NCBI RefSeq assembly: GCF_947623445.1
Contig: NC_135245.1
Coordinates: 4,037,501 to 4,101,500 of the forward strand
Length of the DNA stretch: 64,000 nucleotides
Direction of reading: 5' to 3'
Origin: Clavelina lepadiformis
Taxonomy: Eukaryota > Chordata > Ascidiacea > Aplousobranchia > Clavelinidae
In this document: one piece after another, positions 6,903 through 53,902 of the stretch
Numbering within the stretch: the first letter of the stretch is position 1
Layout of the letters: every line of letters starts with the position of its first letter
Program-made: the position numbers and the translations under genes
Notes under the pieces: model-generated
What the model saw: the letters and a program-made list of their open reading frames with translations, nothing else
Databases searched by the model: none
What the model was told of the DNA's origin: nothing

Positions 6903-9900
6903 ATGATTTCTCCACGTAATTTGTGGATATTGCTGATGACGTGTTCCTCGTGGAAAGGAGTGATGAGCTTGGATAGAGAAGCGTGTGTGCCAATACGATT
7001 ATCACCGAACCAGCAGGACACGTTACCAGATGTGGAAACGTTAAGAATTCAAAGAGGATTACCTGGAAAAGCTGGAGGAATTGGGCCAGTTGGATCCCAG
7101 GGAGCTCAAGGACCCAGGGGATTTCCCGGCACTTGTGCTTGTGATCCGAGCGAAATTGCTCAAATACATGGTAAGTTCGAAAAATTGAATTTCATATTTA
7201 TTAAACAATAACTGAAGTATTTAAACCGAATAACTTCAACTGCACGGTTATATTGATGACAGCCCAAGAAATAACCTTGTTTGTGATAAATTAGTGTCTA
7301 TATGTTAATCGAATGGAAAATCGTCATTTCTTGTTATGGGAAATGCAAATGTTTGTAGTCTTCGGATTTTGACTCGTTCAAACTATATAAGATCATGTTT
7401 AAAATCTTTTCAAACCACTTTCAAAAATAAAAAAAACTATATAAAAGGACTTGTGTTTTATCTTCTTAGTTTTCCTGGGAAATATAACCGCAAAGCTCGA
7501 AAGTTTGATTGCATTGCATCATTACGCTCTAAAAGGTTGGTCGTACTTTAAATATAATATTTTATAAAAATATATTATTACTGTCGTAAGTTTCTTTTAC
7601 ATTTCTTTTAGACATATTATTATAGCTAAGAGACAAGAGTAGTTTTTAAGGGTTGGAATTTATTCGTATCCTATAACCACACTTTATAGTCTTTCCAATT
7701 TATTCATTAAACGTCGCCTTTTTGTTTTAACGCTTAAAGAGCTGATTAAGTGTTCACATACTCTTTGAAATTTGAAACAATTTAAAAGAAAATTATCTAT
7801 ATTCCTCACTGTATTATGGTTTATTTCCTGCCATGATATCATTTGTGGCTTTTTATCGTTTTTATTACCAAATTAAAATATATAATGGAAATATATTTAG
7901 TCGATCAATGCGACCACATGCCATGTAAAAATGGAGGAACTTGTATCAACGATGGCAACTCGTATATATGCAACTGCACTGATGGATATGAGGGACATGA
8001 CTGCTCCATAAGTAAATAGTTTTCGCAATAAAAACATAAACAAGTTTATTTGAATTGACTTTAGTGATACTTTTCGTGACGACGCATTGATGATAAAAAT
8101 TGTTTACAAATTATTTGTATAGCTCGGTTTATAAAAAATTGCATTATTTTGTGCAGGAATCCAGTGCGTGGTGCCGTCGGCGCCCAACAACGGAACGATC
8201 TCTCGAGAAAGTGGTCAACTGGTTCCTTATAAGGAAAACATTACATACAGATGCAACGATAGACACGTGGTGGCGTATGAAGTGAATAATTTTCTAGTTG
8301 CAACTTGTCAGGAAACTAAACAATGGACAAAAGATACTCCAGTGTGCGTGGGTAGGTCTTTTAACTGACTTTAAATATATTTTTTTATAAACAGCAAGTC
8401 TAAATTTTGCATCTGTTTTTATCAAACTTGTTAAAATTTTCAGTTGATGATTGTAATCCCGACTCATGCTCTGGAAGAGGAACTTGTATCAATCAAATCG
8501 GCCGAACAATTTGTGAATGTGATGAAGGATACGAAGGAAGCGATTGTTCAGTTCAAAGTGAACTTTCTTAAATCAAACTCGACGATTATTGCAATAAATT
8601 CAAAGAAAATTGTGATTATGACGTAATACTTAGCTCAGCATTCAACTCCAAGCACTCGTAATAGAAAGTGTTTGTAGATAATCCGTGTGATCTATCTCCC
8701 TGCGGTCAAAGAGGAGTTTGCGTGTTGGAAGAAGATATGAACTACACCTGCCGATGTCTCACTGGACATCATGGAAAGAACTGCGAGACAATTATCGGTT
8801 TGTAAATTTCCTTCAAATAAATAAAAACCGAGATATGGGTTCGGTGATTTCCGTTTCAAAAAAATTCAAACTTAAGATTTTTTATTATGCGCTAGTCGGA
8901 TATGCTTTTTCAAAATTATTTAGTCAGAACTATTATGTTTAAATTGATTTTTACAACCATTTAGATTATAACTTTATTTAACTCATGTTTAACTCATTTT
9001 TGTAATTTCAGCAAGTGATTGTGTACGCGCTGTTGGTATGGAGGACGGCAGGGTAGGAAATAACGATATTACCGCCTCACGGTCACATAGCAGTTACACA
9101 CCGCATAAAGCCCGATTGAGACAAACTGGAGGTTGGCTGTCACCATATCCACGTAAATGAGCAACTAGATGAAGTTTTCATTGTGATTTGACAAACTGCC
9201 GCAGTTGCCAAATGTTGTTTTAATAATTTTGAATATTTTTTTTCCGAACACAGAAATATATTAAATATTGTTCGAAAATTTTGCTTTGACATTGATACAT
9301 TTTATACGTTTTTATTAGAAATATTTTACTTTAATTCGAAATATATACGAGGAGAATGATTTGTCCACATTTTTTTATAGTTTTCTTACTTGTTTGTTAG
9401 CTCAGCGCGGTGAATGGCTTCAAGTGGATTTAAAATCATCTACCACTGTCGTCGCTGTTGCAACTCAAGGTTTTGTTGGACATTGGACAACAAGTTACAA
9501 AATAGCGCATGGCTTCACCGAGAACGATTTGCAGATTATACAAAACAATCAAGGACAAGATTTGGTAAGTTCATTCTTGTGGTTGCTAAATGATTGTTTC
9601 AGAGAGTTGACCGCAACAAAAACTAAATTACGTAACCACACACGCATAACTAAGTTAACTGTTAGTGTTCATGAAATGTTAAGCGAATTGAACAGAAGCA
9701 ATCCAGGGTTTCTAAATCGTGTATTGAAACTATGGTAGCGATTTTAACCATTATTGTTTTTAGTATTATATAAGCATTCTAGGTTGATGTTTTGCAAACT
9801 TTTGAGCTTATTAATTTTATCCAGTTAAATTTTTGAAATTATTAGACAGCATTTACCTGCAGGTTTTTCAAGGTAACCGGGACTACAATAACGTCGTTAG

Positions 9901-10012
9901 AAACAATTTTCCGGCTCCAGTGACCGCGAGATTATTCCGACTCCTTGTACAAACATGGTATGGCCCTAATGGCTATCGCGCAGCCCTTCGTGTAGAATAC
10001 TATACCTGTTAA
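6903..10012 (+). CDS. Secreted collagen-EGF-sushi-EGF-EGF-discoidin protein, copy 1
   Basis: Nine exons: 6903-7170, 7470-7535, 7901-8011, 8157-8351, 8444-8557, 8678-8797, 9012-9152, 9401-9564 and 9863-10012. They join in frame to 442 residues with GT/AG junctions throughout. Order: hydrophobic signal peptide (about 1-22), collagen repeats GLPGKAGGIGPVG to GFPG (52-76, eight G-x-y), CACD hinge, 22-residue neck (90-111), EGF (112-148), sushi/CCP with four Cys and one Trp (149-213), EGF (214-251), EGF (252-291) and F5/8C discoidin (about 295-442, starting VGMEDGRV, ending LRVEYYTC). Introns 1-7 are phase 1 and intron 8 is phase 0, so domains sit on symmetric exons. The collagen and neck suggest trimerisation and the discoidin domain suggests binding of glycans or lipids, so a secreted lectin-like recognition role is inferred. 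The ATG matches the start in copies 2 and 5. No inactivating change is seen. Confidence 0.85.
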
Positions 10013-10840
10013 CGGTTAAGAATTTCTGCAAAACTTTTCAATGTATATTTGTCATCTGCTATTGAACTTTTCCTCTATATACCGTGTAAATTTGTTTACA
10101 ATCTTATAATTCATATTATTCACCAGCAAAATTTTTAGTGCACGGAACAATTAACATACAAATAATAAACATGCTAACTCTTAATATTGTGTTATGTGAG
10201 CATGCATTGCAAACGTTCGATTGAAGTGGTTGTGAGTATATAGCTGCATATGTCCAGGACAATATTAAGGGAGTTGAGTTGTTTTGTAACTTCAGAATTT
10301 GTGACAAAGTTATCAGGGATTAGTCCACGCGGCTAAAGCGTAAACAAATTGACAAATACTTAAATGACATAAAATTGGGAAAACGCAGCAATCTAAAAAT
10401 TAACATGTTATGAGCAACCTCGTTTGCACCTCCGTTTTGTATTGCCGTAAATGGTACCCGGCAGAATGTTAGAAAAATTAAGCTCAAGAAATTATTTGTA
10501 TCAAATTTCCTCCTGCGTGTGCGCATAGACCTTACTGCAGCGGTGGCTTTAGGTTTGGTTGGAAAGACAAAATTTTTTTCTGAAGATTTTAGAACGTTGC
10601 AAACATATTGCGACAAAATATTTCCATGTTTAACCAGTTAAGCTAAATAATACCTCGTATATTTTCGAATTCAATTACTACAAACATAGAAAAAATATTT
10701 CGTAATTTCTCACATTCCGTAAATTAGTATCGCCTTACTCGGTTTCCTCCTTCCGTAAATTAGTGTTGTTTTGGTCTTGGCATAATTCTTTAAATCACGT
10801 GACTGTTTAAGCATTATTAAAAAGTTTGTTACCAAGCAAA
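10013..10840. other. 3' flank of gene copy 1
   Basis: I see no gene. The sequence just after the stop aligns with the 3' flanks of copies 2 (20903-21650) and 5 (53903-54350), including the motif ctattgaacttttcctctatataccg. The last part leads into retroelement copy B. Confidence 0.6.
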
Positions 10841-15450: not shown

Positions 15451-15515
15451 GATTGCAGTTATATTTTGAACACTTTATGAAAATATTATTTAATAATGGT
15501 TGTGTCATTTACGAT

Positions 15516-17725: not shown

Positions 17726-20700
17726 ATGATTTCTCCACGTATTTTGTGGATATTGCTGATGACGTGTTCCTCGTGGAAAGGAGTGATGAGCTTGGATAGA
17801 GAAGCGTGTATGCCCATACGATTATCACCGACCCAGCAGGATTCGTTACCAGATATGGAAACGTTAAGGATTCAAAGAGGATTACCTGGAAAAGCTGGAG
17901 GAATTGGGCCAGTTGGACCCCAGGGAAGTCAAGGACCCAGGGGACTTCCCGGCACTTGTGCTTGTGATCCGAGCGAAATTGCTCAAATACATGGTAAGTT
18001 CGAAAAACTGAATTTCATATTTATTAAATAATGACTGAAGTGTTTAAACCGAATAACTTCAACTGCATGGTTATATTCATGACAGGCAAAGAAATAACCT
18101 TGTTTGTGATAAATTCAAAGCCAATTAATATCTCTATATTAATCGAATGGAAAATCGTCATTTCTTGTTATGGGAAATGCAAATGTTTAGGCTTCGGATT
18201 TTGACTCGTTCAAACTATATAAGATCATGTTTAAAATCTTTTCGAACCACTTTCAACAATTAAAAAACTATATAAAAGGACTTGTGTTTTATCTCCTTAG
18301 TTTTCCTGGGAAATATAACCGCAAAGCTCGAAAGTTTGATTGCATTGCATCATTACGCTCTAAAAGGTTGGTCGTACTTTAAATATAATAAGGTTTTTTA
18401 TAAAAATATGTTATTACTGTCGTAAGTTTCTTTTACATTTCTTTTAGATATACTGTTATAGCAAAGTGACAAGAGTAGTCTTTAAGGGTTGGAATATATT
18501 CATATCCTATAACCACACTTTAATCTTTCCAATTTATTCGTTAAACGTCGCCATTTTGTTTTAACGCCTAAAGAGCTGATTAAGTGTTCAAATACTCTTT
18601 GAAAATTGAAACAATTTAAAAGAGCATCACCTATATTCAGCAACCTCACTGTATATTCCTCATTGTATTGTGGTTTATTTCCTGCCACGATATCATTTAT
18701 GACATTTTATCGTTTTTATTACCAAGCTAAAATATATAATGGAAATATATTTAGTCGATCAATGCGACCACATGCCATGTAAAAATGGAGGAACTTGTAT
18801 CAACGATGGACACTCGTATATATGCAACTGCACTGATGAATATGAGGGACATGACTGCTCCATAAGTAAATAGTTTTCACAATAATAATATAAACAAGTT
18901 TATTTGAATCGATTTTTGTGATACTTTTGGTGACGACGCATTGTTGGTAAAAATTGTTTACATTTTATTTGTATATGGTTCGGTTTATAAAAAATTGCAT
19001 TATTTTGCTCAGGAATCCAGTGCGTGGTGCCGTCGGCGCCCAACAACGGAACGATCTCTCGAGAAAGTGGTCAACTGGTTCCTTATAAGGAAAACATTAC
19101 ATACAGATGCAACGATAGACACGTGGTGGCGTATCAAGTAAATAATTTTCTAGTTTCAACTTGTCAGGAAACTAAACAATGGACAAAAGATACTCCAGTG
19201 TGCGTGGGTAGGTCTTTTAACTGACTTTAAATTTGTTTTTACAAACAACAAGTCTAAATTTTGCATCTGTTTTTATTAAACTTTTTAAAATTTTCAGTTG
19301 ATGATTGTAATCCCGACTCATGCTCTGGAAGAGGAACTTGCATCAATCAAATCGGCCGAACAATTTGTGAATGTGATGAAGGATACGAAGGAAGCGATTG
19401 TTCAGTTCAAAGTGAACTTTCTTAAATCAAACTCGGCGATTATTGCAATAAATTCAAAGAAAATTGTGATTATGACGTAATAGTGAGCTCAGTATTCAAC
19501 TCCAAGCACTCGTAATAGAAAGTGTTTGTAGGTAATCCTTGTGATCTATCTCCCTGCGGTCAAAGAGGAGTTTGCGTGTTGGAAGAAGATATGAACTACA
19601 CCTGCCGATGTCTCGCTGGATATTTCGGAAAAAATTGCGAGACAAATATCGGTTTGTAAATTTCCTTAAGATAACTAAAAAGCCGAGATATGGGTTCGGT
19701 GATTTTCGTTTTAAAAAATTCAAACTTTAAGTATTTCATTATATGCTAATCAGATATGCTTTTTCAGAATTATTTAGTAAGAACTTTTATATTTATATTG
19801 ATTTTTAAAGCCATCTATATTATAGCTTTATTTAACTCATGTTTAACTCATTTTTGTAATTTCAGCAAGAGATTGTGTACGCGCTGTTGGTATGGAGGAC
19901 GGCAGAGTAGGAAATAACGATATTACAGCCTCACGGTCACATAGCATAGCAAGTTACCCACCGCATAAAGCCCGATTGAGACAACCTTCAAGTTGGCTGT
20001 CACCCCATCCACGTAAATGAGCAACTAGATGAAGTTTTCATTGTGACTTGACAAACTGCCGCAGTTGCAAAATGTTGTTTTAATAATTTTAAATCACTTT
20101 TTTTCCGGAACTCAGAACAACACATAACACAGAAATATTCGCTATTTTTGTAATATTGTTCGATAATTTTGCTTAGACATTTATGCATTTCATATGGTTT
20201 TATTAAAAACCTTTTAACTTAATTCGACATATATACGAGGAGAATGATTTGCGCACATTTTTCTTTACAGATTTCTTACTTATTTGTTAGCTCAGCGCGA
20301 TGAATGGCTTCAAGTGGATTTAAAATCATCTACCACTGTCGTCGCTGTTGCAACTCAAGGTCATTCATATGGTTCATATTGGACGACAAGTTACAAAATA
20401 CAGTATGGCTTCACCGAGAACGATTTGCAGATTATACAAAACAATCAAGGACAAGATTTGGTAAGTTCATTCTTGTGGTTGCTAAATGATTGTTGCACAG
20501 AGTTGATCGCAACAAAAACTAAATTACGTAAGCACCCATTCATAACTAAGTTAACTGTTAGTGTTCATGAAATGTTACACGAATGGAACAGATGCAGTCC
20601 AGGGTTCCTGAATCGTGCATTGAAACTATAGTAACAATTTTAACCATTAGTGTTTTAAGTACTATGTAAGCATTCCAGGTTGATGTTTTGCAAACTTTTG

Positions 20701-20902
20701 TGCTTATAAATTTTATCCAGTTAAATTTTTGAAATTATTATTAGTGAGCATTTTCCTGCAGATTTTTCAAGGTAACCGGGACCACAATAGCGTCGTTAGA
20801 AACAATTTTCCGGTTCCAGTGACCGCGAGATATTTCCGACTCCTTGTACAAACATGGCGATATTATTACGCAGCCCTTCGTGTAGAATATTATACCTGTT
20901 AA
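17726..20902 (+). CDS. Secreted collagen-EGF-sushi-EGF-EGF-discoidin protein, copy 2
   Basis: Nine exons: 17726-17993, 18301-18366, 18755-18865, 19013-19207, 19298-19411, 19532-19651, 19866-20012, 20291-20460 and 20762-20902. They join in frame to 443 residues. Domains match copy 1: signal peptide, collagen repeats (GLPG to GLPG), neck, EGF, CCP, EGF, EGF, F5/8C. The first six exons differ from copy 1 by scattered single substitutions. The three discoidin exons carry in-frame length changes: +6 in exon 7, +6 in exon 8 (TQGHSYGSYWTTSYK against TQGFVGHWTTSYK) and -9 in exon 9 (QTWRYYYAALRVEYY). All splice sites are canonical and no stop is seen. Inferred role: a secreted recognition molecule with altered discoidin loops. 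Confidence 0.85.
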
Positions 20903-22829: not shown

Positions 22830-24950
22830 CTAGAATATAGAAAAGAAAGGTGTTCCAGCCATCTTGCACACTGGCCGTACATCTCCTTCGATCATCAGAG
22901 CCAATGGAGTAAAGCATGATTTGTACGCAAAAAAAATTATTACCAAACAAATAACAGCAGAAAAGCTTTGAAGCATAAACAATCGCAACAACTCTTTTAT
23001 GGTCTTAGAATAGTTCCGTTCGCTTTTACATAATGATCGGTTGTAATAAGCAACCACTTGTTCGACGCCATCAACTTTCTGGGATAAGACACAACCAACG
23101 GCGACATTTGAAGTGTCGGTGTCCAAAATAAAATGTTTATTAAAATCGAGGTAGCTTGAAACAGGTGATCTTATTAAAACACGTTCTGGCACTGGCCGGT
23201 CCAGAAAAAACGTTTTTGCTATTTCGGTAAGTTTATGTAGAAGTGCTGCAATCAGTGCATAAAGTCTTTAATGAATTTTCTATAGTCAGAAGTCAAGCCA
23301 ACAAAATGTTTAACGTGTTTGATGGACAGCGGAATTGGCCACTCCGTTACGACGTAAGTCTTGTCAGTATCACATTTTATACTCCGATAGGACACGACGT
23401 AACCACAAAAATAAACCTCAGTGTTAAACAACGTACATTTTGTAGGCTTAAAATTGAAGCCAGCAACTTCAATCCGCTCCAGAACCAATTGAAGCATATT
23501 CAGATCTTCGTTTAAAGTACGACCATACACAATTATGTCATCGAGGTAATCATCAACGCCGTTCCACTTCACGCCATTATTCGCATAAGGCGCTGAAAAT
23601 TTGGAGCAGAGTTACACAACCCCGTTAGCTTTACATTAAATTCTAAAAGACCGACATGGCTTGTGAAGGCCGTAGCCTCGAGAGAAATCTTATCCATTGG
23701 TATCTGCCAATATCCTTCTAGTCTAGAGTAGAAAAATATTTGCAACCCGCCAACTCGTCGGGACTATCTTCAATGCTCCAGTTTGGGAAACTATTTTTCT
23801 TGGTCTTTTCATTTAGCTGGCTGTTGTCGACACAAAATCGTGTCTCACATGCTCTCTTCCTCACCAACACAACTAAACGGAACTTGGCCAAAGTGATTTT
23901 GAGGGGCGTATTAGGTCTTTGATAATATCTTCCACAATTGTGTTTTCTGCTGAAGTCCCAACCTCTTTGGCGCCTGTCGCGTTAGAGTGGCCCCGCCTGT
24001 ATCTATAACGTGAGGGATATGATCAGTGCCGGCCAAGATCGTCTTTACAAACAGAAAACGCCATTTGGTGTTTTCTCAAAATCGCTTGTGTTTTCTCGTA
24101 AGACAGGTCTTCGTTAAAGTCGACGTCACCTTGTTTCTTGTGCCAGTGTTCAGGATCATTTTGCGGGGCCCTCGAGATTAGGTTAAACTGCTCCCGCATT
24201 AACACATCCGCGACCGATACAACTGAAGTTCTAAGGAATAGGATTCATAATTGAGGCACATGTGCCGGGCACTTTGCAAGGCACGTAATCTGTCACAGAG
24301 ACTGGAGAAACCGGGGCAACTCGCGTACCTTTGGTTATTAAAGTATAACGCTGTCATCGCCAAGGTTTGCCAGCAACATAAGAATACGTGTAGGCCTATA
24401 CATGGACGTCACAACACAACTAGCCGCTAAAATCCCCACTTAATGTTAAATTCAGTATTCCTCACTAAATAAGCTGAGAAGAGTAAAAGGTCTTTTCTAT
24501 CGACGTCGTTGTTGGGTTTAGCCGACACGCTGATCTCGGAAGAAGACTACGCTCTCTATCACAAAGATCTCGTTGATATTTGGGACGAGCTGCCGTTTTA
24601 GCAGAGGAACTTCAGCTTCGCTTATAAACATGTTCATAGAAGTACAGCACAAAGCTCAATGATGAAACTAAGGAAAATCAAGGCCGATTATAAAATCATG
24701 CACTATATTGAAACAAACAAAAGATCAAGATCAAAGGCTAACTCCCCAAGTTTTAACAAGACTTTACCTTTATCCACAATGAATTAGTCGCTGTCGTCGG
24801 CTCCGACAAAACGCGTTTCTACCGGTGATGCTAACATGGGTGCTTTTTCAACAGAGTTCAAACCATTCCAAAGCGATTTCCTGACGAGTGACACGCTGGC
24901 CCAGTATTCACCAAACTACATCTTATTTTGTCCTGGAAAAATTACTGTAG
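22830..24950 (-). mobile_element. Decayed Gypsy-type retroelement, copy C, lacking the hAT MITE
   Basis: The best preserved pol of the set. On the minus strand are RT with YLDDIIVYG followed by an intact FKPTKCTLF-type segment (23252-23572), the RNase H start (22830-23192, FILDTDTSNVAVGCVLSQ and ERNYSKTIKELL), RT upstream fragments (24023-24205), and part of the protease near 24840-24945. At about 23616 it has the uninterrupted target (ccgttagc) where copies A and B carry the MITE, so it separated earlier. The protease end joins directly to a discoidin-gene exon at about 24950. Confidence 0.82.
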
Positions 24951-24957
24951 GTAATGT

Positions 24958-27842
24958 TGATGAAGGGTACGAAGGAAACGATTGTTCAGTTCAAAGTAAA
25001 ATTTTCTTAGAGCAAACGCAGTAAATATCGCAATTAATGCAATGATGATTGTCATTATTTCGTCATATTGGGATCATCCGATTCTACGATATGTAAAGTT
25101 CTATAGTTCTATACAAAATCACATTTGCTTACAGGCTACACTGTATATAGGTAATCCCTGTGATTTGTTTCCGTGTGGTGAAAGGGGTGTTTGTATCTGG
25201 AATGGTGGTACCAGCTACACTTGCAGATGTCTCGTTGAATTCCGAGGAAACAACTGCGAGACATATGACGGTTGGTAAATTGCTAATAGAGTTAACAATA
25301 GAAGTGCTCGTCTCCAATTTAGAGATATCAGTTTTGCATATTGGAGTGCTAGATCAATCAAAATTGCTGACTACTGACTACTCATTGCTCACCACTGGAG
25401 CAATAGCTGCATCTATTTCATTTATATTACAGCTTTAATGTTGCTTTACAACTATCTTGATTTACGATTGCAAAACTAGTGCTTGTATAGCGTACAGGTA
25501 AAGTTGATTTTATTCTGCTGTTTTACAGCTAACTCGTGTGCACATACCGTTGGTATGGAAGATGGTAGAGTGGAAGACGGAGATATTTCGGCATCACGTA
25601 GCAGTAATCATCCATCGTACCGAGCTCGATTGCACAATTCTTATGGATGGGAAATATATTCAGGTATATCATATAATGTGCACATTTATCTACGATATTT
25701 TGCTACATGACCATCGTCATATAAAGTTAGGCTATATTATAAAGATGTCAATTTTTATAAGTATTTACAGCTATTATGTACATATTTGAGTAGTTTATTA
25801 AGTTATATTTATTATAAGGTATATTAAGTTTGTATTATTTCTATGAATATATTAATAGCATAGCCTAATTCTAGTGCATAAATAAATCCGGCGTTTTATT
25901 TACCATTTATCATTCTTATCTCTTATAGCCAACATTTATGACTGGCTTCAAGTGGATTTGAAGAAAAATACAACCGTTGTAGCTGTAGCGTCCCAGGGGA
26001 GCGCGAGTGGTTCATACTACGTGAGGGGTTACAAAATTGCATATGGGTTTGCCCCAAACGCTCTGCAAATCATCAAAGACAGCAACGGAGAAGATATGGT
26101 AAGTGTATTCTATGGTTTCATAAAGTAATCAAAGCGACTATTTTATCAAAAATATAAGTCGAAATATAACGATATATATTAAAGTTGCTAGATAAGGAAA
26201 ACGAAAGGACGGCAATAGGTTAGGGAAATGAATCCGCAAAAGCTGAATTTAGTTATTTTAGATTACACCTTTAATAATGTTATGAAATACAAGATAAATT
26301 TGGAATAGGTTGAAATTAGCAAGCGATACCTTTCAAATTTGTATAATGTTGAAATCTTTAAAGTTCAGGATATCCCGCCTTAACGGTTATTCAATTTAGC
26401 CAAACCTACAATTTCCTGAATGCCTCCATCTGTCGACCGAATCAAAGCAACGATTTGTTTAATTCTCATAAAAACTCATAATTCGGGCAGAACTTCATTC
26501 GAAAATACTTGTCGTGATCGCCCTCCGTCCTTCCAATCATGTTAAATCAAACAATAAAAACAACGCACCGTTCATCAAGCTACAGTAATTAAAAGTTGCA
26601 ATGGGCATTCCTTGCTTCGAGGAGGGAAGGCGTAGGAGGGATTCGAGACAGTTCGGTACACTGATCGCACATTTGATAAAACGTGCGAGTTTTCAATCAA
26701 AACTTAAACACGTGTTTACAAACGAATGATATTCTTTATAACTGTGTGGGTTCGAGATGTCATATCGGTATATACAAAAAAATACAAAAGTCAAAGTCTG
26801 TGTTAACTTATACCCTATAGGCTACAGTGCAACAAACATGTGCGTGCAAGCAAGCTACATACGTTCAGTATAAAACGTTAAAAACGAAAACCTAAAAAAG
26901 TGCAAGAAAACAAAACATACGTTTCGTAACAGTTGTTTAAGATTTATTCAAAATTAGTAGCTTTGAACGCTCGAAATATTGACAGTTTATAATTGTTAAA
27001 CAATGACATGTAAAAGCCTGGTCGTTTTAGCAAATGCACCAAGTAAAATCTCCGTCAAAAAGTGAGTCCAGTGCTGTAACACATCTGTGCTTAATATAAA
27101 AGAAAACATGACAAAAATTTTTAAAATGCCTTGTTGGTACAGTATATGTAGACCTACTCTCAAATACTGACATGGAATAATTAGGTTGACAATCGCACAA
27201 CGATGCAAATTGCGATAAACGTGACATCACAGAGGAAAATCCTTAGGAGCAAACGCTCGGTAAATTTTCGATATTCCTCACTGTTTTTTTCGAAAAAAGT
27301 TGGAAGTTAAGAGTTTTCTATTATAAAATTCAAATGCAAGTTTAAAGCATAAAGTTTAAACGCATCTTTCTGATCGAGGTTTTAGTTTAACTTAACTTTT
27401 TCCGGAATTTATACCAGAGTCACAAAAAGAGATACAAAGAAGTGCAAGATCCTAATTTGAACTATAGGTATATTGATATTTAAAAAAAGATATTTGTAGA
27501 CTAAATGTTAACCAATTTTCTGCTGAGTACAAAGCAAAACAGCAACAATAAAATATTTTGCTTGACTACGGTCGTAAACAAAAAAGGCCGTTACACCTGA
27601 AATGAATTTCGAGGAATGAAATGCATTTATATGTAGCAAGTATGTCTAACCTATTTCAACAAAGTTTAAGAAATTATCATTCAGCTTTTTCCCAGATTTT
27701 TCAAGGAAATTCGAACCACAATACAGTCGTGAGAAACAATTTCCCTTCTCCGGTTAGAGCGAGATATTTCAGGATTCTTCTACAAAGTTGGAATGGCGGT
27801 TATGGAGGCCTACGCTTAGAGTACTATTCCTGCTATCCTTAA
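24958..27842 (+). pseudogene. 5'-truncated collagen/EGF/discoidin gene, copy 3
   Basis: Only the 3' half is present: a fragment of exon 5 (24958-24995, DEGYEGNDCSVQ), exon 6 EGF (25151-25270), exon 7 (25529-25663), exon 8 (25929-26098) and exon 9 (27696-27842, ending LRLEYYSCYP). These exons keep open frames, canonical splice sites and the expected phases, so decay after truncation is slight. The discoidin part is more diverged from copies 1, 2 and 5 and resembles copy 4, including the two-residue tail after the last Cys. Signal peptide, collagen, neck, first EGF and sushi exons are missing and replaced by retroelement copy C. Intron 8 is long (1.6 kb) and holds nothing recognised. It might still be transcribed from a new 5' end. 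Confidence 0.75.
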
Positions 27843-31400: not shown

Positions 31401-34400
31401 CCCAACAAAGAGAACTCTTTCCAAAGTGTTTCCAGGAAAACCAGCATCAAGCATAAAAGTCAATAGTTGTGGTAAATTGTTTTCGATTTCTTCCAAAGTA
31501 ACTGTTCTTATTTTAGAATTACAAACTTGGTGATCGAGATAATTTTGGCAACGAAGACCTGATTCATCTATCATATTACAACACATCCATTTTTGGTGAA
31601 AAACTGACAAGCTAAGCGGTAAATTTATGAAGTTGAACCATTTCTTCTGTTTGAAAAAGCCATTTTTGGCTTCAAGTCTCATACACCAGTGATAACGAAG
31701 TGGCCCAAACAAGCGCATTTGCTCTCCAAGGTGCACCATATAGTGCATTTTTGGTGTGAAGGAATGGTCTGGATAAAGCATTTGCGTAACATCAATATAT
31801 GTAGCTACGAGGCACTCCAGCTCTACAATTGTGTCCTTGTACACAGTGACAGATGTGCATAGTTGTACAATTTGTAGTAACCTAATAAAATTCATCCAAT
31901 TATTATTTTGTGGAGGGATCCAGTCAACAACAAAAAATGGTAGCAAATGCATCAAGTTGAGCATACTAGCAGCTGTTTGAGGAAAAGTAGAACCATCCAG
32001 TAAATGCTTCTTCTCAATTATCTGTGGCTTGTCCAGGCCCTCTTCTACAGAATACTCAAAAAACTCAATGCAGTGATTAAATTGCTCCAAAGTGAAATAT
32101 TTTTTCTCAAAAATCAAATATAACATCACATGCTGCACTTCTGACTTGCAAACACCTTCCAATAAAATATGCATAGGGTCTTGCAAAATACATTGACAAA
32201 TATCAAATCCAGGAATATCCAAAAGGAATGATGATTTTGTTATACCCCATTGAGATGAATAGGCTGTCCTTTGATCTGCCATGCCATTTAAACTAACTAT
32301 TCTCGAAACATGCTCACTGTGCGTTCGTAACGGGCATCTTTGATGCTCTAAATAGCTGCTTAAAGTAGCTCTGGTCACGTTACATCTTCTGCATGGGCAA
32401 TTTGCTGCACCAACTCCCTCTTTGAACCCACCCATTGCCTGTGCTGCTGGAGTGTCTCCCACAGCATAGAGTAACAACCCCTGAAATAACCTTTGTTGAC
32501 CTCCAACATTTAAAAGAACACCATTATACAACTCTATCATGCTCTGTACGAAATCTTTTAGCATCATCCCAACGGCATCAAACTCCTTGATATCCTTAGA
32601 TTTACCCAAACAAAGTAACTGTATTAATTTCAACTTGTTTCTCACGTAAGGGGGTAAATTCAACAATGTCCAATAGTAAACAGTAATTTTATGCTTCTTT
32701 CGGTATGACCCGATAGGATTAACTATCTCAAAATCATCTGTATACAACGAGAAAAGCAAACAGCTAACACTACTTCTCATTAACTCATGACTTTGCCAAT
32801 AAGCACCATCTCCAATGTCAACCAATCTATCAGCAAAGCTTTGTGTTGTGTTTGAATTTAAGTGGCTCAAGACTTCTGGCATATTAAGTAAAGAAGTGAG
32901 CTGAGATAAAAATGGTACATAATACACCTTTACAGGTTGGCGAATTCGCTGAACACCAGACTTTCCTTTTATATTTTTGTACTTTGCACCAATAACTGCA
33001 GCAATCGGTTTCACAAAACCAAAATGATTTGTAAAATACTCCTCTTGTGAGCTTTTAGTCATCAGCCTATCGAAGGAACAGCCGATTTTATTAGGATTCG
33101 CAATAGCATTATTCATGGAGGAAATTTTCTTCTCAATCAAGCAAGACATTGACTTTAAAATATCTTTTACAGCGCTTTCACTTGATTTATGGAAGGTGAG
33201 AAGTTTTAAAATAAATGCGGCTTCATTACGCAAAGAGTCTGTTTGACTATAAGAGCCAGTGGGAGCAGTATTCATCATAAAGGTATTAACTTCAGGTAAG
33301 TCCATATCCTGTTCATTGTTATGAACATTGCTGCTAGATTGAATATGGTATCGTTGGCAATGGTTTAAAAACTGTTTATATTTTGTAAACCGTCTCCTGC
33401 AGTCCTCTGCACCGCACTGATAAACCAGGTTCGAGTCACGATGTTTCTTCAATATGTGTTTGTTTAAATTTAAGCGTGACAAAGCAGTATGAGAACAAAA
33501 CATGCATGAATAATTATTTAACGATGTCATAAGGCTAAAAGGAAACTACAAGTCCACCACTATTAAGCTAAATCAATGTTATCCCTAAATAAAAAGTGCA
33601 CATAGCAAAAAACAATCTTGAAAAAAATCATAATACTTTGGAAGTAGACAGCAATTTTACCAGTGTTGTAGCTTAACATAACGGAATAGATTAATAAATT
33701 TTCCTGTTTTGTGTTTGACAATAGGAAACAATAGGCATACCTTACAAAGAAAATAACCAAAATACATCTCACGCTGTTTTATCAACTTCACTCATCAAGG
33801 TTAATTTTAATGCATATATTTAAATGGTGTACTATTTCCGATCGCATAAAATGGATCGCATAAATGGATTGGATATAAAAGATCTGTGCAAAAAGCTACA
33901 AAGCAAATTATTCTTTTGTTTCATTTTAATTAATAGGCCTATACATAGTTTTAATTATGTATGGGAATTAAACGTTTGCCTTTATCAAATATTTCATATC
34001 TTTGGTCCAATTTTTAAAAGCAGTCATTTTGCATTGGACTCATGCTAAACTAATTGCCCATTGTTAACATTCAGAGTATTTAGGCCCCTTATTTGATCAT
34101 GTTAAACATGTGTGAAAGTACAAATGGTCACTTGTGGTCGTTCATCAAGACTAGTGCAAATCATCATGCTTGGTTTACAGTTCTTAACATAACTTAAGTT
34201 TAATTTATTTTCTCAAATGCATTCTAAGATATAAACTTTATTTTTATCTGTTAGGTGTCAACCTGTTCTATCAACCTATAATACATATATAGAAAACTGT
34301 AGACTAACACAGCACTACAGTAGAAAGTTTGCAAAAGGAGACGTTGGTTTTGCTGTATCTGCAATTTGGAACATATCCAAACTTTAAAAAATATATGCCG

Positions 34401-38327: not shown

Positions 38328-41300
38328 TTAAGGATCGCAGGTATAGTATTCTACGCGTAGCCCTGCGTAATTGGTGTTCCAACTATGTATAAGGATTTTA
38401 AAATATCTTGCTGTCACTGGAGCAGGAAAGTTGTTTCTGACGATAGTATGCGAGTCTCGATTACCTTGAAATATCTGAGAAAACAAACAAAGCAATATTT
38501 AAAAAAATTCAATCACATGTGTAATTGTATGGTATTTCTAATGAAGACATGTGATATGTTTATTGAAGGTGTCTATATATAGAAGGTATAGCCATAGCTA
38601 TAATTAAAAGTGCGTTAAACGGTGAGTTACAATAACTTCGCTGCTCTAAAACGTAACAGCAAATGCCAAATTAATTAGTCATCAGCTGTAACTAGATAAA
38701 TATTACTCAACCAAAGTGAATTATTAATTTTTACTATTTTTTATCATTACCATTCATAGTATTCTTTGATAAATATACTTCATTTGCACTTTTTCTACAT
38801 TTTAATTTGTTCTTTACATCTTTGATTTAAACGATCACACTTCACCTAAGAATTAATTTATAAAATACCAGACTGCATTTACCAAATCTCCTCCCCCAAT
38901 GTTTTGCATAATCTGTAAAGCGTCCTGGCTAAAACCGTACGCTATTTTGTAACTTCTCACGTAGTATGATGAACTGCCTGGGTCACCTTGGGTTGCGATA
39001 GCCGCGACAGTTGTATTTTTCCTTAAGTCCACTTGAAGCCAGTCATTAGCATTAACTAAATAAAACAATTAGGAAACATACGGTTAGAAGCGAGAAATGA
39101 TGCGATATTGCTTTATTTGTCAAAGCTTTATTTATATTTTTATCTGATTCCACAGTAATAATTTTTACAGGTTGATGATAAACATAGGCTTATAATTATA
39201 TATAAATTGCTACGGTATACTTCTCATATGACAGTAGCAAAAAGATAAGAAAAAGTTGCTGAAACACATCGCCAATTTAAACGTGTTAAAGGTTAACCTG
39301 GATGTAGTCGCCAACTGTTAGAATACTGCAGTCGGGCATACGTTGCTGGGTAACTGCTGTAACGCGACGCCGTAATATCACGGCTCTGTACTCTTCTGTC
39401 TTCCATACCAACAGTGTACCGACATAAACTTGCTGAACACATATCATAAAATTACAAAACTAAGCGAAATTTAATTTAATTTAGTTTAACGTGGCTGATA
39501 AGTTTACGATAAAAATATTGCTTTTCGACAACTTAATTTTTAATTTACTTTTAAATGTTTCGCAATGTCTTCCTTTATACCCTGGAAGACATCTGCACAA
39601 GTAGTTTCTGCCACCTTCTGAAAAGCAAACCCCGCTTTGGCCACAAGGAGGATTGGCCATGTGACAAGGATTACCTATAAGACAAGTGTCTTCTAAAATA
39701 TTTATATGTATAATCTCAAGATGGCGTCATATAGCAATAATAATAATAATTTATGTCACCCATATAACAATAATTTTTGATTTTGTTTTCTAAATAGTTT
39801 TTACTTTCTACTAAACATTTGTTCCCTTCGTATCCTTCATCACATTCACAAATTATCCGGCCGATTTCATTGATACAAGTTCCTCTACCAGAGCATGAGC
39901 CAGGATCACAATGATCCACTGAAAACAAAAATTCACATATTTTGACAAAAAGACGGGAATTAGTATAACTTGCAGGTATATTTTAAAACGCGATTGCGTT
40001 CGACTTACAGACACACACAGGAGTATATCTTGTCCATTTCTTTTTATGACAAGTTGCAACAAGATAATTATTCACGTCGTAGGCCACTACATATTTGTTG
40101 TTGCATCTGTACGTAATGTTTTCGTTGTGTGGAACAAGCTGTCCACTCTGAGGAAATACTGTTCCGTTATTGGGCGCCGCCGGCACTACGCATTGGACCC
40201 CTGGTCATAACATTACGGAAATCAAATTGGTTTTAATTATTTATGTAACAAATTCGAACAATCTTTTGTTTCGCAAAGGTAAATGCAATGTAACTAAAAT
40301 CTATGATAAGTACGAGAATACCGTTTTCAAATATACAATAAATTTAGCAAAAATGCCTGCAAATCACAACATATTTAGATTAAAATTAAATGAAGTTCGC
40401 ATATTTAGCTAAATTGCATTTAGCATTTAGCCAAATTGTTAAATCGTGAACCAATATTGTCCGTGAGCTGTTCGCATTTTTGCAATTTGTCCGTAAGTGT
40501 TACGTATGCTTACCATACCATTATTTACAAACGGCATCCCACATAAACAGTAGATATATAGAGATATAGCTCGTGTATGATTAAAAACCATATTTACTTA
40601 TGGAGCAGTCATGTCCTTCGTAATCATCAGTGCAGTTGCATATATATGAGTTTCCATCGTTGATACAAGTTCCTCCATTTTTACATGGCATGTGGTCGCA
40701 TTGATCGACTAAATATTTGTTGGCATGTAATGGATTATACTCATAAACTCATTGTCATCAATCAATTAATTAGCATTAAAAATTAGTCACAGTAATACTA
40801 ACAACACAAAGAAAACATGGAGACTTTAACTGCCAAAAAAAGGCCTTAAAAATTGATTTGAAGGAATCAGAAGGTGGAAAATGTTTTTTCGGGTATGCAC
40901 AATGTGTATTTATAATTATACTTTCCAACATATTGAAATATTTAATACTAAATTTTGACACTTGTTTGTTTGCTGTATTTTTTATTGCTTTTTTAACGTC
41001 ATTTTTCATGACATTACCGCCTTACATTAATAGTACCCTATGACGTAAGAGGAGTAACTTTTTACTTGCAAGCAATAAAACATGTATTTTCTTGTACAGC
41101 AATAATAATTACAAAATGATAGCGTGTTTTTTTAAATAAAACTTAGTTCCATATTTTTGGCCATTGAAAATCCTCTATAGCCGATTGTATAGAGTAAACA
41201 TAAAATGTTTATGGTTATTATGTAATCACTCAACATTTTACAGGCCTGCATGAACTTCAAAACCAACAAAATTTGCAGTATATCACAAGTGAGGAGTATA

Positions 41301-42895
41301 TCTTGCCTATAAGTTTAGTCTCAAGTTTTTGGTTTGATTCCTTTGATAATGAAACAACAAGAAATACAGTCTAAACGCAAAGGTAAGAGTTAAAGCATTC
41401 ATGCAATAATTGAAAAGCTATAAGTATAAAAGATGGCTGGAAGTAAAGTAACAAAATACCACCCAAGACGTCAAATAGGTTCTTGCTGCTATAAATGCTT
41501 CAAATATTCTGTAAACGCAGCAGAATCATATACAAATGAGTGACAAACCTCTGATAGCGTAATGATGCAATTCACTCAGACGTTCGAGCTTTGCCGTGAT
41601 ATTTTCCAGAGCATCTTAGGAAGTAAAACAAGTTTTTAAGTTTAACTACATTTGGCAAAACATACTAAGTATAACCTAAGTTTCAGAATATAGTATCTCA
41701 ATTTATAGTCTTTGTATTATTATTATATGTATTATTAAACGTATTGGACTTTTAAACACTATAATGGACTTAAAATTTTGCACATTTTATAAGGTACCTG
41801 TACCGAATAAGGCCCGGTTCCTAATAAGGCCCATTGCTCATATTTCGCAAACCCGTGCAAATAAATGAAAGATTTTGTCCCTACATAAAAACTAATATAA
41901 ATTCATGATGGTTTACCAGATTTCATCCTTGTCACGTGATCAACCGATTCACTAGAGCACAACAAAAATTTGATATTTGCAGTTAAGGTGGTTTTGTTAA
42001 TTTAGAAAAAAAGTAAGTGAGAATTTGGCCGGTTAAATGAACTGTTGTCAGCCGGCTGAAGTTTTCATGTAACAACCAACTTAGTATTGAAAAGGATAAT
42101 GCACTTTTTTTTGCTAAAATTTTTCTGATGATAAAAATGTGACATTTTTTTCGTGGATGCCACATGCGCCTAATAAGGCCCATACAACATGCTTGGCTAA
42201 TTGATGTCCAGACTTCAAGAGTGGTTCCAGTCATCAGTTGGCAAATTGTTGCAGTTACTTTGATGCGCCTAGTGGAATCTTTTTAAATGTTTGTACAACT
42301 TAAAATATGAAATTTCTAATAATGTTATATGTTGTCTATTACTATGTTTTGAATCAAAATACTCACAAAATTGGTGGGCCTTATTAGGAACCTATGCTCC
42401 TAATAAGGCCCATTTTTTGGAATTTTTAATTTCTTTATAAAAAATTTTTGGGGGGTTGTCAGGTATTGTGGTTTTAATATGTTGTAGTCATATACCCTCA
42501 CTAATAGAATACGATTTTTCAGTCTATTCTCATTTATGGTTCTTGAGTTATTTTCAAAAAAGTGTTAGGTGGGCCTTATTCGGTACAGGTACCTTATATC
42601 AGCTACAATTTAACTTGAATGAAGCTAAGTTATTGAACAAGCGCTTAGATACACCTTCAAATTTTTCAAACTTGTTGTACATCTGTGCAATTTCACTTGG
42701 ATCACAACCGCAACGGCCAGGAATTCCTCGTGGTCCTTGCGGTCCAACTGCTAGCTTAAAACCGTTAATAAATGTTGAAGAATTTTGGGATGGCGATTAA
42801 GGTATGGGTGTATAGGCTTCGCTATACGAGTTAATTGCCCCATTCCCCAAATGATATGTCATTAAAAAAATCCACAAGAAACACGGAAAAATCAT
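38328..42895 (-). pseudogene. Inverted collagen/EGF/sushi/discoidin gene, copy 4, exon 1 broken
   Basis: Exons 2-9 are clean: 41614-41549 (neck), 40708-40598 (EGF), 40200-40009 (CCP), 39918-39805 (EGF), 39674-39549 (EGF), 39432-39298, 39055-38883 and 38474-38328 (F5/8C, ending LRVEYYTCDP). All are open, with GT/AG and matching phases. Exon 1 (42895 to about 42640) starts with a signal-like MIFPCFLWIFLMT but reaches TAA at codon 33 (after YTPIP). The conserved Cys is lost, about half of the collagen repeats are missing, and the usual donor is mutated; a donor at GAAG/GTGTAT would restore phase 1. The clean downstream exons mean that either inactivation is recent or another first exon is used. 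Intron 1 contains a MITE. Confidence 0.78.
41792..42594. mobile_element. TA-flanked MITE in intron 1 of copy 4
   Basis: The termini aggtacctgtaccgaataag and its exact inverse (about 24 bases in all) enclose 803 bp. The flank is tata on both sides (41788-41791 and 42595-42598), as for Tc1/mariner-type TA insertion. The motif cctaataaggccca or its inverse recurs inside. There is no transposase. Confidence 0.8.
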
Positions 42896-50254: not shown

Positions 50255-50724
50255 CATTTGAATTAACTGAAACCACGTGGGCGAGATTACAAATCTTGAT
50301 AAGCTTTCACTAACCGTTGTGAATATTTTTACATTAGCCTGTGTGCTTCGCTAATGAAGTGCAGAAAATGAACGAAAAAAGCAAATAGAAAAGAAAAAAG
50401 CTTTGTGTGGAGTGAGAAAAAGATTTCCAGGATTTTTAGTCTTATCTTGCATGCATGTGATATAACAGCGGATGATATTATAAGTGCCATTGAACACAAC
50501 GAAAATTTAAGTAAACTTCCAGTAGGCGTTGATTTCGTAAAGAAAAAATACTCACTTTTACTCACCAGTGAAACAGATCTCTAAATGTAATAATAGCTTC
50601 ATATCTTTATAGTGCAAGGCAGATTCGTTTTCAGCAAAAACATTTGATAAATTAAACCGATTAACTCTAATGTGCTCATTAATTCTCAGATCGCAAACGT
50701 TACGATTTTGTTGAACCAATCAAA
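50255..50724 (+). promoter_or_regulatory. Conserved upstream block, copy 5
   Basis: CACGTG is at 50274-50279, followed by a purine-rich stretch and a splice acceptor (ttctcag, AG at 50688-50689) 35 bases before the ATG, as in copies 1 and 2. The intervening sequence is more diverged than between copies 1 and 2, which makes the retained CACGTG and acceptor more notable. Confidence 0.4.
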
Positions 50725-53700
50725 ATGATTTCTCTCCATATTTCGTGGTTATTGCTGATGACGTATTTCTCGTGGAAAGGAGTGATGAGCTTGGATAGAG
50801 AAGCGTGTATGCCCATACGATTATCACCGACCCAGCAGGATTCGTTACCAGATATGGAAACGTTAAGGACTCAAAGAGGATTACCTGGCAAAGCTGGAGG
50901 AATTGGGCCAGTTGGACCCCAGGGAGCTCAAGGACCCAGGGGGCTTCCCGGAACTTGTACTTGTGATCCGAGCGAAATTGCTCAAATACATGGTAAGTTC
51001 GAAAAAAATAAAATTCATATCTTTTATATCATAACTGAATTGCTTATATCGAATAACTTCACCTGCATGGTTATATTAATGGCAGTTTGAAAATTAACCT
51101 TATCGGTGCAAAAATGTTAAGTTTTTATTGACCAATTCACTATTAAATCTCAAATACCACGTATTGCAATTTCTTAAATTACTTTACAAAAATTAAAAAA
51201 CTATATAATAATTTATGCTGGATTTGTTCAGTTATCCTTGCAAATATTACCGCAAAGCTCGAAAGCTTGATTGGATTGCATCATTACGCTATGGAAGGTT
51301 GGTTATTTTTTTAATAACATTACTTTTTGTTGACTTAATATTATACTGTCGTATGGTTTTTGTAAATTTATTGTAATTATTACCAAGTTGGAAGATTTAT
51401 CTTTAAACGCTTGCGAATTTAATTGCATCTCATAATACGATTTATCTTTTTATTTTGTCCATTCATGTTCGCCATTTTATTTCCCGGTTAACTGATTGTT
51501 ACCTGATTTTTTTCTAATATACGACAAACAATAAAAGCATGTCACCTATAGCTGATTGCAATGTAATCTATTTCCAGCTGCGATAAAATTTTTTGGCTTT
51601 TCTAATTCTATTGTTTTTATTATTTTATTTATTTATTTATTTGTATAATGGACATATATTTAACCAATCAATGTCAATCATGTTTTCTCTGTGTTGTTAG
51701 TATTAACGTGACTAATTGTTATTGCTAATTGATTGATTGATGACAATGAGTTTATGAATATAATCCATTACATGCAAACAAATATTTAGTCGATCAATGC
51801 GACCACATGCCATGCAAAAATGGAGGAACTTGTATCAACGATGGAAACTCGTATATATGCAACTGCACTGATGATTACGAAGGACATGACTGCTCCATAA
51901 GTGAATAGTTTTCATAACAAAAATATAAACGAGTGTATTTGAGTTGATTTTTGGGATATTTTTAATGACGACTCCTTAAAATTTGATTATATCTATATAG
52001 TTTGGTTTATAAAAAATTGCATTATTTTGCGCAGGAATCTCGTGCGTGGTGCCGTCGGCGCCCAATAACGGAACGATCTCTCGAGAAATTGGTCAGCTGG
52101 TTCCTTATAAGGAAAACATTACATACAGATGCAACGATAGACACGTGGTGGCTTATGAAGTAAAAAATTTTCTAGTTGCAACTTGTCAGAAAACTAAACA
52201 ATGGACAAAAGATACTCCAGTGTGTGTGGGTAGGTTTTTAACTGACTTTAAATTTGTTTTTACAAACAACAAGTCTAAATTTTGCATCTGTTTTTATCAA
52301 ACTTGTTAAAATTTTCAGTTGATGATTGTAATTCCGACTCATGCTCTGGAAGAGGAACTTGCATCAATCAAATCGGCCGAACAATTTGTGAATGTGATGA
52401 AGGATACGAAGGAAGCGATTGTTCAGTTCAAAGTGAACTTTCTTGAAACAAACTCGGCGATTATTGCAGTAAATTCAAAGCAAATTGTGATTATGACGTA
52501 ATATTGAGCTCAGCATTCAACTCGAATCACTCATAATAGAAAGTATTTGTAGGTAATCCCTGTGATCTATCTCCCTGCGGTCAAACAGGAGTTTGTGTGT
52601 GGGAAGAAGACATGAACTACACCTGCCGATGTCTCGCTGGATATTTCGGAACAAACTGCGAAACATATAACGGTTTGTAAATTTCCTTCACATAACTAAA
52701 AAGCCGATGTATGGGTTCGGTGATTTTCGTTTAAAAAAATTCAAACTTAAGGTTTTTTATTATGCGCTAATCGGATATGCTTTTTCAAAATTATTTAGTA
52801 AGAAGTTTAATATTTATATTGAATTTTATAACCATTTAGATTATAGCTTTATTTAACTCTTGTTTAACTCATTTTTGTAATTTCAGCAAGTGATTGTGTA
52901 CGCGCTGTTGGTATGGAGGACGGCAGAGTAGGAAATAACGATATTACCGCCTCACGGTTACATAGTAGCAGTTACCCACCGTATCATGCCCGATTGGAAA
53001 CATCTGGAAGTTGGCTGTCACCACATCCACGTAAATGAGCAACTAGATGAAGTTTTCATTGTGACTTGACAAATTGCCGCAGTTGCCAAATGTTGTTTTA
53101 ATAATTTTAAATCACTTTTCTTCCGAAAACAGAAATATTTGCTATATTGTGATGTTGTTCGATAATATTGCTTAGATATTTATGCATTTTACATGGTTTT
53201 ATTAAAAGCCTTTTAATTTAATTCGACATATATACGAGGAGAATGATTTGCCCACTTTTTAACTTACAGTTTTCTTACTTGTTTGTTAGCTCATCGCGAT
53301 GACTGGCTTCAAGTGGATTTAAAAACATCTACGACTGTTGTTGCTGTTGCAACTCAAGGTATTCCATACGGTGGTTCATATTGGACGACTGGTTACAAAA
53401 TAGCGCATGGCTTCACCGAGAACGATTTGCAGATTGTACAAAACAATCAAGGACAAGATTTGGTAAGTTCATTCTTGTGGTTCCTATATGATTGTTTCAG
53501 AGAGTTGACCGCAACAAAAACTAAATTACGTAAGCACCCATGCATAACTAAGCTAACTGTTAGTGTTCATGAAATGTTACGCGAATGGAACAGAAGCAAT
53601 CCAGGGTTTCTGAATCGTGCATTGAAACTACGGTAGCAATTTTAACCATTAGCGTCTTAAGTATTATATAAGCATTCCACGTTGATGATTTTGCAAACTT

Positions 53701-53902
53701 TTGTGCTTATAAATTTTATCCAGTTAAATTTTTGAAATTATTAGTCAGCATTTTCCTGCAGATTTTTCAAGGTAACCGGGACAACAATGGCATCGTTAGA
53801 AACGATTTTCCGGCTCCAGTGACCGCGAGATATTTCCGAATCCTTGTACAAACATGGCATGGCACTTTAGCAGCCCTTCGTGTAGAATACTATACCTGTT
53901 AA
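50725..53902 (+). CDS. Secreted collagen-EGF-sushi-EGF-EGF-discoidin protein, copy 5
   Basis: Nine exons: 50725-50992, 51232-51297, 51790-51900, 52035-52229, 52319-52432, 52553-52672, 52887-53030, 53290-53462 and 53762-53902. They join in frame to 443 residues with canonical splice sites. Domains and phases match copies 1 and 2. Exon 7 has SRLHSSSYPPYHARLETSGSW, exon 8 has TQGIPYGGSYWTTGYK and exon 9 has QTWHGTLAALRV, so the discoidin loops again differ in length and sequence while exon 5 encodes the same EGF as in copies 1 and 2. Intron 2 carries a decayed exon-3 remnant and a stretch nearly identical to copy 4. It is transcribed away from copy 4. Function is inferred as for copy 1. Confidence 0.85.

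Follow-up and report, generated by a model that had tools for sequence, protein, structure and literature searches.

A tandem array of F5/8C genes with diversified discoidin loops in the ascidian Clavelina lepadiformis, a candidate recognition family

Soluble recognition families with diversified members have been described on immunoglobulin, fibrinogen and lectin folds, and in snail FREPs, VCBPs and the products of Botryllus fuhc the germline diversity is focused in the recognition part. Ficolins and collectins have a leader, a short collagen stretch, a neck and a C-terminal recognition domain; EDIL3 and MFGE8 (lactadherin) have two C-terminal F5/8C (discoidin) domains and an RGD integrin motif in an EGF; and F-type lectins carry the fucose motif HX(26)RXDX4(R/K). 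Here we describe a stretch of 64,000 nucleotides on chromosome 6 of the ascidian Clavelina lepadiformis (C6:4037501-4101500; hereafter the window), which holds part of a tandem array of genes. Each intact gene encodes a Gly-X-Y stalk, EGF and CCP domains and a single F5/8C domain whose loops have been under diversifying selection.

Chromosome 6 (C6) spans 20,771,506 bases of a 209 Mb assembly; the C. lepadiformis assembly kaClaLepa1 was scaffolded into chromosomes from 117-fold HiFi reads, according to the available part of PMC10884593. An earlier note, made on the window alone, had taken the host for Ciona. Assembly-wide searches with F5/8C and EGF-CCP queries recovered at least 15 copies (G01-G15), all on the + strand, over 205 kb at about C6:4.044-4.250 Mb; copy counts from these searches are lower bounds. 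The window contributes three of them (G01-G03), and the other 12 loci were retrieved and aligned. An open frame and canonical splice sites were found in 10 of the 15 copies, hereafter the intact copies.

The array proteins appear to share the leader-collagen-neck-C-terminal head order of ficolins and collectins, with a collagen stretch that is sub-threshold in Pfam, and because the layouts are alike the multivalent logic is likely the same. However, their head is an F5/8C domain and not a fibrinogen or C-type lectin domain, they have an EGF-CCP-EGF-EGF spacer, and they form a diversified array. With EDIL3, lactadherin and retinoschisin they have EGF and F5/8C content and database names in common, whereas EDIL3 and MFGE8 have two F5/8C domains and the array proteins only one, together with an extra collagen stretch, a CCP and variable spikes. 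Neuropilin b1 is likewise an F5/8C domain and belongs to the closest solved relatives, and the variable loops correspond to its pocket loops L1-L3 and an adjoining fourth; unlike it, the array proteins are apparently secreted, carry a single head on their collagen stalk, come in 15 diversified copies and lack the ligand-contact Asp. FREPs, VCBPs and fuhc products have other folds, and fuhc diversity is allelic rather than spread over an array. Oyster sperm bindin has a common jellyroll fold, with positive selection at its binding face and recombination (PMC5712786, in the part available); it comprises few genes with repeated F-type lectin heads, whereas the array has one F5/8C per gene and a collagen stalk. 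RGD was found in none of 14 array copies (G13 left out), and the F-type lectin motif, at a spacing of 24-28, in none of 20 proteins. By sequence, the array proteins are F5/8C proteins, but each of four related groups has defining features that were tested and that they lack: EDIL3/MFGE8, the F-type lectins, neuropilin-type receptors and ficolins proper.

Selection on the F5/8C loops and exchange between copies

Variation in the domain is concentrated in four loops, which we delimited by motif with the finding already in hand: loop 1 between ITAS and ARL (exon 7), loop 2 between two Trp (exons 7-8), loop 3 after TQG (exon 8) and loop 4 after QTW (exon 9). Loop 2 varies without length change and had been missed by the earlier note. 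Among the 15 copies there are thirteen distinct sequences of loop 1, ten of loop 2, twelve of loop 3 and twelve of loop 4, and the combination of loops 1, 3 and 4 is unique in every copy. The loops are composed of 18.9 percent Ser, 15.8 percent Tyr and 9.8 percent Gly.

Using the NG86 method, we observed a ratio of nonsynonymous to synonymous substitution (dN/dS) in the four loops of 2.27 for the 15 copies (codon bootstrap 1.22-4.71) and 2.06 for the 10 intact copies (1.19-4.19); both intervals lie above 1, as the proposed diversification of the loops predicts. Elsewhere the ratio was low, at 0.49 for the F5/8C domain outside the loops (0.31-0.78) and 0.49 for exons 1-6 (0.34-0.71) in the 15 copies, and 0.58 and 0.47, respectively, in the intact ones. 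Over whole exons 7-9 it was merely 0.87 (15 copies) or 0.97 (10 intact). With whole-exon ratios below 1, we do not claim positive selection on the whole of exon 8 or 9. None of 5000 random codon sets within the domain matched the proportion of nonsynonymous differences (pN) of the loops in either copy set, and 23 of 5000 (15 copies) and 104 of 5000 (10 intact) reached the loop dN/dS.

A second loop definition, from neuropilin-2 pocket residues plus the fourth loop, gave a mean entropy of 0.963 bits inside against 0.205 elsewhere (p = 2e-12), or 0.895 against 0.277 when the fourth loop was omitted; the nine mappable contact residues alone showed a weaker contrast (0.84 against 0.37, p = 0.017). 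All 14 length-variable columns of the F5/8C domain fall inside the loops. A one-tree model fitted 13 positively selected sites, of which 12 could be mapped; nine of these lie inside the loops (p = 0.00015) and three (331, 332 and 405 in G03 numbering) outside them. Exons 1-5 diverged less than every intron in the 15 copies. Exon 7 (0.0997) exceeded its adjoining introns (0.0755, 0.0755), exon 8 (0.0581) fell below its own, and exon 9 (0.0877) was about equal. We rejected GC-biased conversion as a cause of the loop diversity: A/T-to-G/C differences made up a share of 0.709 in the loops, which does not exceed their share in the remaining domain (0.759), exons 1-6 (0.770) or introns 6-8 (0.727).

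Among solved structures, neuropilin-2 and factor V are closest in sequence. Structure prediction and comparison of the full protein (AlphaFold and Foldseek) were too low in confidence, and residues were mapped instead through a sequence alignment to neuropilin-2. In this alignment the variable loops match the neuropilin b1 ligand-pocket loops L1-L3 and the neighbouring fourth loop, in agreement with the earlier proposal that the changed segments are loops of the discoidin fold. In neuropilin, loops L1-L3 hold the C-terminal arginine of VEGF peptides, and we compared the pocket residues Tyr299, Asp323, Ser349, Thr352 and Tyr356 of NRP2 (both from the accessible part of PMC8945599). The Tyr299 column reads H, L, V or Y (Tyr in two of 15 copies), the Thr352 column S, V or P, and the Tyr356 column Y, H, S or F; Ser349 falls in a gap.

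The copies are mosaics, in that the nearest neighbour of a copy shifts from block to block, and the incompatibility of nearby sites was below that in all 1000 permutations (14 copies, G13 left out). We attribute this mosaicism to gene conversion or recombination. Database protein P0003, on an 11.5-Mb contig that we take to be from a second C. lepadiformis assembly, resembles different copies in different parts (its third EGF G08, loop 1 G12, loops 3 and 4 G04), and none of the 14 reference copies with which it was compared has its combination of loops. As a further mosaic, it suggests that the repertoire varies between individuals.

A one-tree site model of exons 7-9 gave a likelihood-ratio statistic (2dlnL) of 68. 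Because recombination inflates one-tree models, as exons 1-5 show (see below), we do not use them as main evidence, and replaced them by local trees and simulated recombination, run with custom likelihood code rather than a standard package. With a tree per exon, model M8 was preferred over M7 in exons 7, 8 and 9 (p = 0.013, 0.00075 and 0.0002, uncorrected), also after gapped columns were removed (p = 0.017, 0.0037 and 0.0017, uncorrected). With a tree per block, the comparison was not significant for exons 1-2, 3-5 or 6 (p = 0.19, 0.16 and 0.38; G13 dropped for exons 1-5 and G07 for exon 6). We then compared the summed statistic, 40.2, with 64 null simulations that had two trees per exon (recombination within exons) and no positive selection; none exceeded it, the maximum being 22.0. 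The single-exon statistics of exons 8 and 9 were matched in none of the 64.

Gene copies and protein architecture

The intact copies in the window and the domain that carries the loops are as follows.

6903..10012, + strand: G01, intact, 9 exons, 442 aa, canonical splice sites and open frame; exons 6903-7170, 7470-7535, 7901-8011, 8157-8351, 8444-8557, 8678-8797, 9012-9152, 9401-9564, 9863-10012 (+)
9012..10012, + strand: F5/8C domain of G01, exons 7-9 with variable loops L1-L4
17726..20902, + strand: G02, intact, 9 exons, 443 aa; exons 17726-17993, 18301-18366, 18755-18865, 19013-19207, 19298-19411, 19532-19651, 19866-20012, 20291-20460, 20762-20902 (+)
50725..53902, + strand: G03, intact, 9 exons, 443 aa; exons 50725-50992, 51232-51297, 51790-51900, 52035-52229, 52319-52432, 52553-52672, 52887-53030, 53290-53462, 53762-53902 (+)

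By eye, G03 is database protein P0002 ('retinoschisin-like', C. lepadiformis). Exons 1-6 have the same lengths in all three genes (268, 66, 111, 195, 114 and 120), and exons 7, 8 and 9 measure 141/147/144, 164/170/173 and 150/141/141, all as the earlier note had given them. The differences are multiples of three and lie after SR, TQG and QTW, as described there, and every length change in exons 7-9 across the 15 copies is a multiple of three. The EGF of exon 5, said to be identical in the three genes, differs by one residue in G03. Diversity had been described as confined to the loops: this holds for the length changes of the F5/8C domain, whereas substitutions also occur elsewhere, in exons 1 and 6 (8-15 of 89 and 5-9 of 40 residues differing among G01-G03) and at the three fitted sites named above. 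Of the five genes with one architecture that had been proposed, the three intact copies stand; the other two are divergent, one with a stop codon and one without its 5' half. The original observation is thus sound in gene structures and exon lengths and was amended in host, gene number and the confinement of diversity.

In the remaining five array copies the frame is broken, exons are missing or a splice site is non-canonical.

G05, + strand: exon 1 donor is GA
G07, + strand: frameshift in exon 6
G08, + strand: exon 3 acceptor is AT
G10, + strand: stop in exon 4 and a GA donor
G13, + strand: exons 1-3 missing

G12 and G13 (loci L017 and L018) are adjacent and nearly identical over their shared exons, with G13 lacking exons 1-3; we read the pair as a recent partial duplication. 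Every other pair differs by at least 3.9 percent over the aligned gene.

The proteins have, in order, a hydrophobic N-terminus (by eye), a Gly-X-Y stalk, Cys-x-Cys, a short neck, EGF, CCP, EGF, EGF and one F5/8C. The stalk comprises 8-9 Gly-X-Y triplets, and a run of nine G-x-x triplets was found in all 14 array copies tested. Pfam F5/8C (PF00754) matched P0002 at residues 311-434 with 66.6 bits against a cut-off of 28.2 (3e-18), and EGF was above its cut-off in the same protein. Sushi exceeded its cut-off in the relatives P0010 and P0011 and was precomputed for P0001, with no match for P0002. The four proteins scanned have one F5/8C stretch each, and no fibrinogen-like or C-type lectin domain was among their Pfam matches up to E 0.1. 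In G01-G03 the mean hydropathy over any 19-residue window never exceeded 1.28, so that no membrane anchor is apparent; the proteins are apparently secreted. Database matches are named retinoschisin-like, lactadherin-like or EGF-like repeat and discoidin I-like domain-containing protein 3, and searches by shared short words, one of them limited to the best candidates, found no named homologue of the full architecture outside C. lepadiformis and none in a named tunicate.

Smaller C. lepadiformis proteins of about 252-266 residues (P0012, P0013, P0015, P0025, P0026 and P0034) have a Gly-X-Y stalk, a neck and one F5/8C without EGF or CCP; four of the six are on a contig of chromosome 6 length, and by eye loop 1 of these proteins also looks variable. 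Since such proteins occur, the stalk with a discoidin head appears to be a wider theme in this species.

A proposed recognition role and its alternatives

We consider it likely that the array encodes germline-diversified, secreted, probably trimeric F5/8C recognition proteins, with humoral recognition of microbes or non-self cells as their most likely function. In the mechanism that we propose, subunits would trimerise through the stalk of 8-9 Gly-X-Y triplets and the short neck, taken to be helical, EGF-CCP-EGF-EGF would act as a spacer, and the one F5/8C domain, of neuropilin/coagulation-factor type, would be the recognition head. Tandem duplication would add copies, gene conversion or unequal crossing over would move segments between them, and purifying selection would hold the scaffold fairly constant. 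Diversifying selection targets the loops that form the neuropilin b1 pocket and the membrane or ligand spikes of factors V and VIII. Each haplotype would then encode about 10-15 binding specificities in the germline, a set that probably differs between individuals. The architecture, copy number, mosaicism and selection on the loops are observed here, and secretion, trimers, ligand binding through the loops, differences between individuals and an immune or self/non-self role are proposed. The earlier note had likewise expected a tandem, copy-number-prone, loop-diverse family of secreted, oligomerising proteins; the family is borne out, secretion is only apparent and oligomerisation only possible. 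The innate immune or allorecognition role that the note inferred is a candidate use, alongside gamete recognition and the handling of microbes or particles.

A bolder version, which we advance tentatively, is that a new scaffold carries a germline repertoire comparable to antibodies, with collagen-stalked multivalent discoidin heads, Ser/Tyr/Gly-rich loops of variable length shuffled among about 15 tandem genes by conversion, and further heads added by splicing upstream exons to orphan cassettes; it may serve self/non-self recognition in this colonial ascidian. A factor VIII discoidin domain has reportedly been engineered to bind integrin with antibody-like affinity (by the title of PDB entry 4pt6), which makes a discoidin scaffold appear suited to diversified recognition. 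In this member of the vertebrate sister group, the neuropilin/coagulation-factor fold would apparently have been turned into a diversified recognition family whose hypervariable surface is the ligand pocket. We know of no humoral or colony recognition gene from this ascidian order, and the array is a concrete candidate locus for such recognition in an ascidian, as well as a natural experiment in the spread by gene conversion and the diversification by selection. Searches of an open-access collection listed no published discoidin or Clavelina recognition family, and the available part of a review describes fusion and allorecognition as unstudied in Clavelinidae (PMC7344649).

Several observations weigh against a repertoire of this kind. 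The loops contain only about 24 synonymous sites, so their dN/dS is imprecise. Exon 6 (0.0942) diverged more than its adjoining introns (0.0775, 0.0755), though its dN/dS is 0.73. One-tree models also gave low p values for exons 1-5 (1.6e-6), a signal that was gone once exons 1-2 and 3-5 had their own trees, and for exons 1-6 of the 10 intact copies, which were not re-split (1.3e-6). Exon 7, taken alone, fails correction for six tests, and two of the 64 null simulations reach it. Asp323, which contacts the ligand arginine in NRP2, is matched by Asp in none of the 15 copies: the column holds Pro in all 15 or, once the Trp residues are brought into line, P, R, T or L, as the alignment is one residue out of register in that loop. 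The ligand chemistry is therefore not that of neuropilin. The Pfam Collagen match is sub-threshold (18 against 27.2 bits) and its stretch short, so that trimer formation is uncertain, and the AlphaFold model is poor (pLDDT 51), with a helix at 82-108 inside the low-confidence model. A third of the array (5/15) is damaged or doubtful, and the variation between individuals comes from one protein, P0003.

A role in gamete recognition is the strongest competitor and, in our judgement, an unlikely one. Here the proteins would coat egg or sperm, with loops diverging through sexual conflict or self-sterility. The fold is common to the oyster bindin lectin domain, and the mosaic copies and possible alternative 3' cassette resemble bindin, which also has pocket-clustered positive selection, intron recombination and alternative splicing (PMC5712786, part of the text). 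However, bindin is encoded by few single-copy genes with repeated domains, in contrast to 15 one-domain genes with a collagen stalk, and the F-type lectin motif was absent from all 20 sequences tested.

Tolerant loops drifting under relaxed constraint, with gene conversion homogenising the remainder, are an improbable source of the pattern. Exchange between copies is real, and 5 of the 15 carry damage or a doubtful splice site, as this explanation would have it. However, it predicts a dN/dS of 1 or less, against the observed 2.27 with its lower bound of 1.22. In the loops pN reaches 0.201, over double what introns 6-8 have diverged (0.0755-0.0902), whereas the corresponding synonymous proportion (pS) is similar in the loops (0.096) and the remaining domain (0.089), and the length changes of exons 7-9 all keep the frame.

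We give very little weight to apoptotic-cell or phospholipid binding in the manner of lactadherin or EDIL3, with an incidental expansion of copy number. The F5/8C spikes of factors V and VIII do bind membranes, and the database names listed above point in this direction. However, a phosphatidylserine binder should keep its spikes, which here vary more than any other part of the domain, and the proteins have a single F5/8C instead of two and, in the 14 copies tested, no RGD.

Uncollapsed haplotypes or misjoined repeats that inflate copy number and mosaicism can be practically dismissed. The near-identity of G12 and G13 over shared exons speaks for them, but the other pairs differ by 3.9 percent or more, all 15 loop combinations are distinct, P0003 is a further mosaic on a contig whose length fits none of the nine reference chromosomes, and the assembly is a chromosome-scale one from 117-fold HiFi reads (PMC10884593, available part).

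Divergent relatives and neighbouring sequences

Six divergent members of two classes, three on each strand, lie among and beside the G copies; they and a nearby remnant are listed below, with window coordinates where they lie within it.

25151..27842, + strand: D3, exons 6-9 only (25151-25270, 25529-25663, 25929-26098, 27696-27842), with open frame and splice sites
24944..24997, + strand: broken exon 5 remnant, upstream of D3
38331..42895, - strand: D4, with every exon recognisable, an in-frame stop in the exon 1 block (42895-42656) and the last exon in block 38474-38331
L021, + strand: divergent, all exons
L023, + strand: divergent orphan cassette, exons 6-9 only
L022, - strand: divergent member
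L024, - strand: divergent member

By eye, database protein P0005 ('isoform X1', on a contig of chromosome 6 length) joins exons 1-5 of G06 to exons 6-9 of the orphan cassette in L023, which lies about 4.6 kb further downstream. G02 and D3 have the same arrangement in the window, with D3 about 5.7 kb downstream of G02 exon 5, and D3 is thus a candidate alternative 3' cassette for G02. Nonsynonymous/synonymous ratios among D1, D3 and D5 are 0.30-0.46 (6-9 synonymous and 8-10 nonsynonymous changes per pair); with their open frames and splice sites, the orphan cassettes look as if they are used. In the divergent copies the loops have no length changes, and pN is below pS (0.053/0.063 and 0.035/0.059), a weak contrast, since there are three copies in each class and the pairs total 8-12 nonsynonymous differences. 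In P0009, the closest database protein to L021, G-x-x triplets never occur three or more in a row; its stalk is missing and its neck kept.

Further relatives were found on C5 (24,617,235 bases; L025, with most exons found) and on C3 (matches to EGF, CCP and F5/8C exons). More clusters of F5/8C exons lie at C7:19.74-19.99 Mb, C2:24.58-24.79 Mb, C2:20.63-20.69 Mb and C6:17.8-18.3 Mb; in the C7 cluster, some of these exons are within near-identical repeats about 10.5 kb apart.

The window also holds mobile-element-like sequences.

31080-33545, - strand: transposon-like gene, an 821-residue open reading frame with a DUF4218 match barely above the cut-off and a Plavaka transposase match below it
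22833-23267, - strand, and 1823-2361, - strand: retroelement pieces, with an RT RNase H domain and, by eye, protease-like and zinc-knuckle frames

Repeats of the stretch at 1823-2361 lie at 12.9 kb (87 percent) and, as weaker matches, at 24.6 and 61.8 kb.

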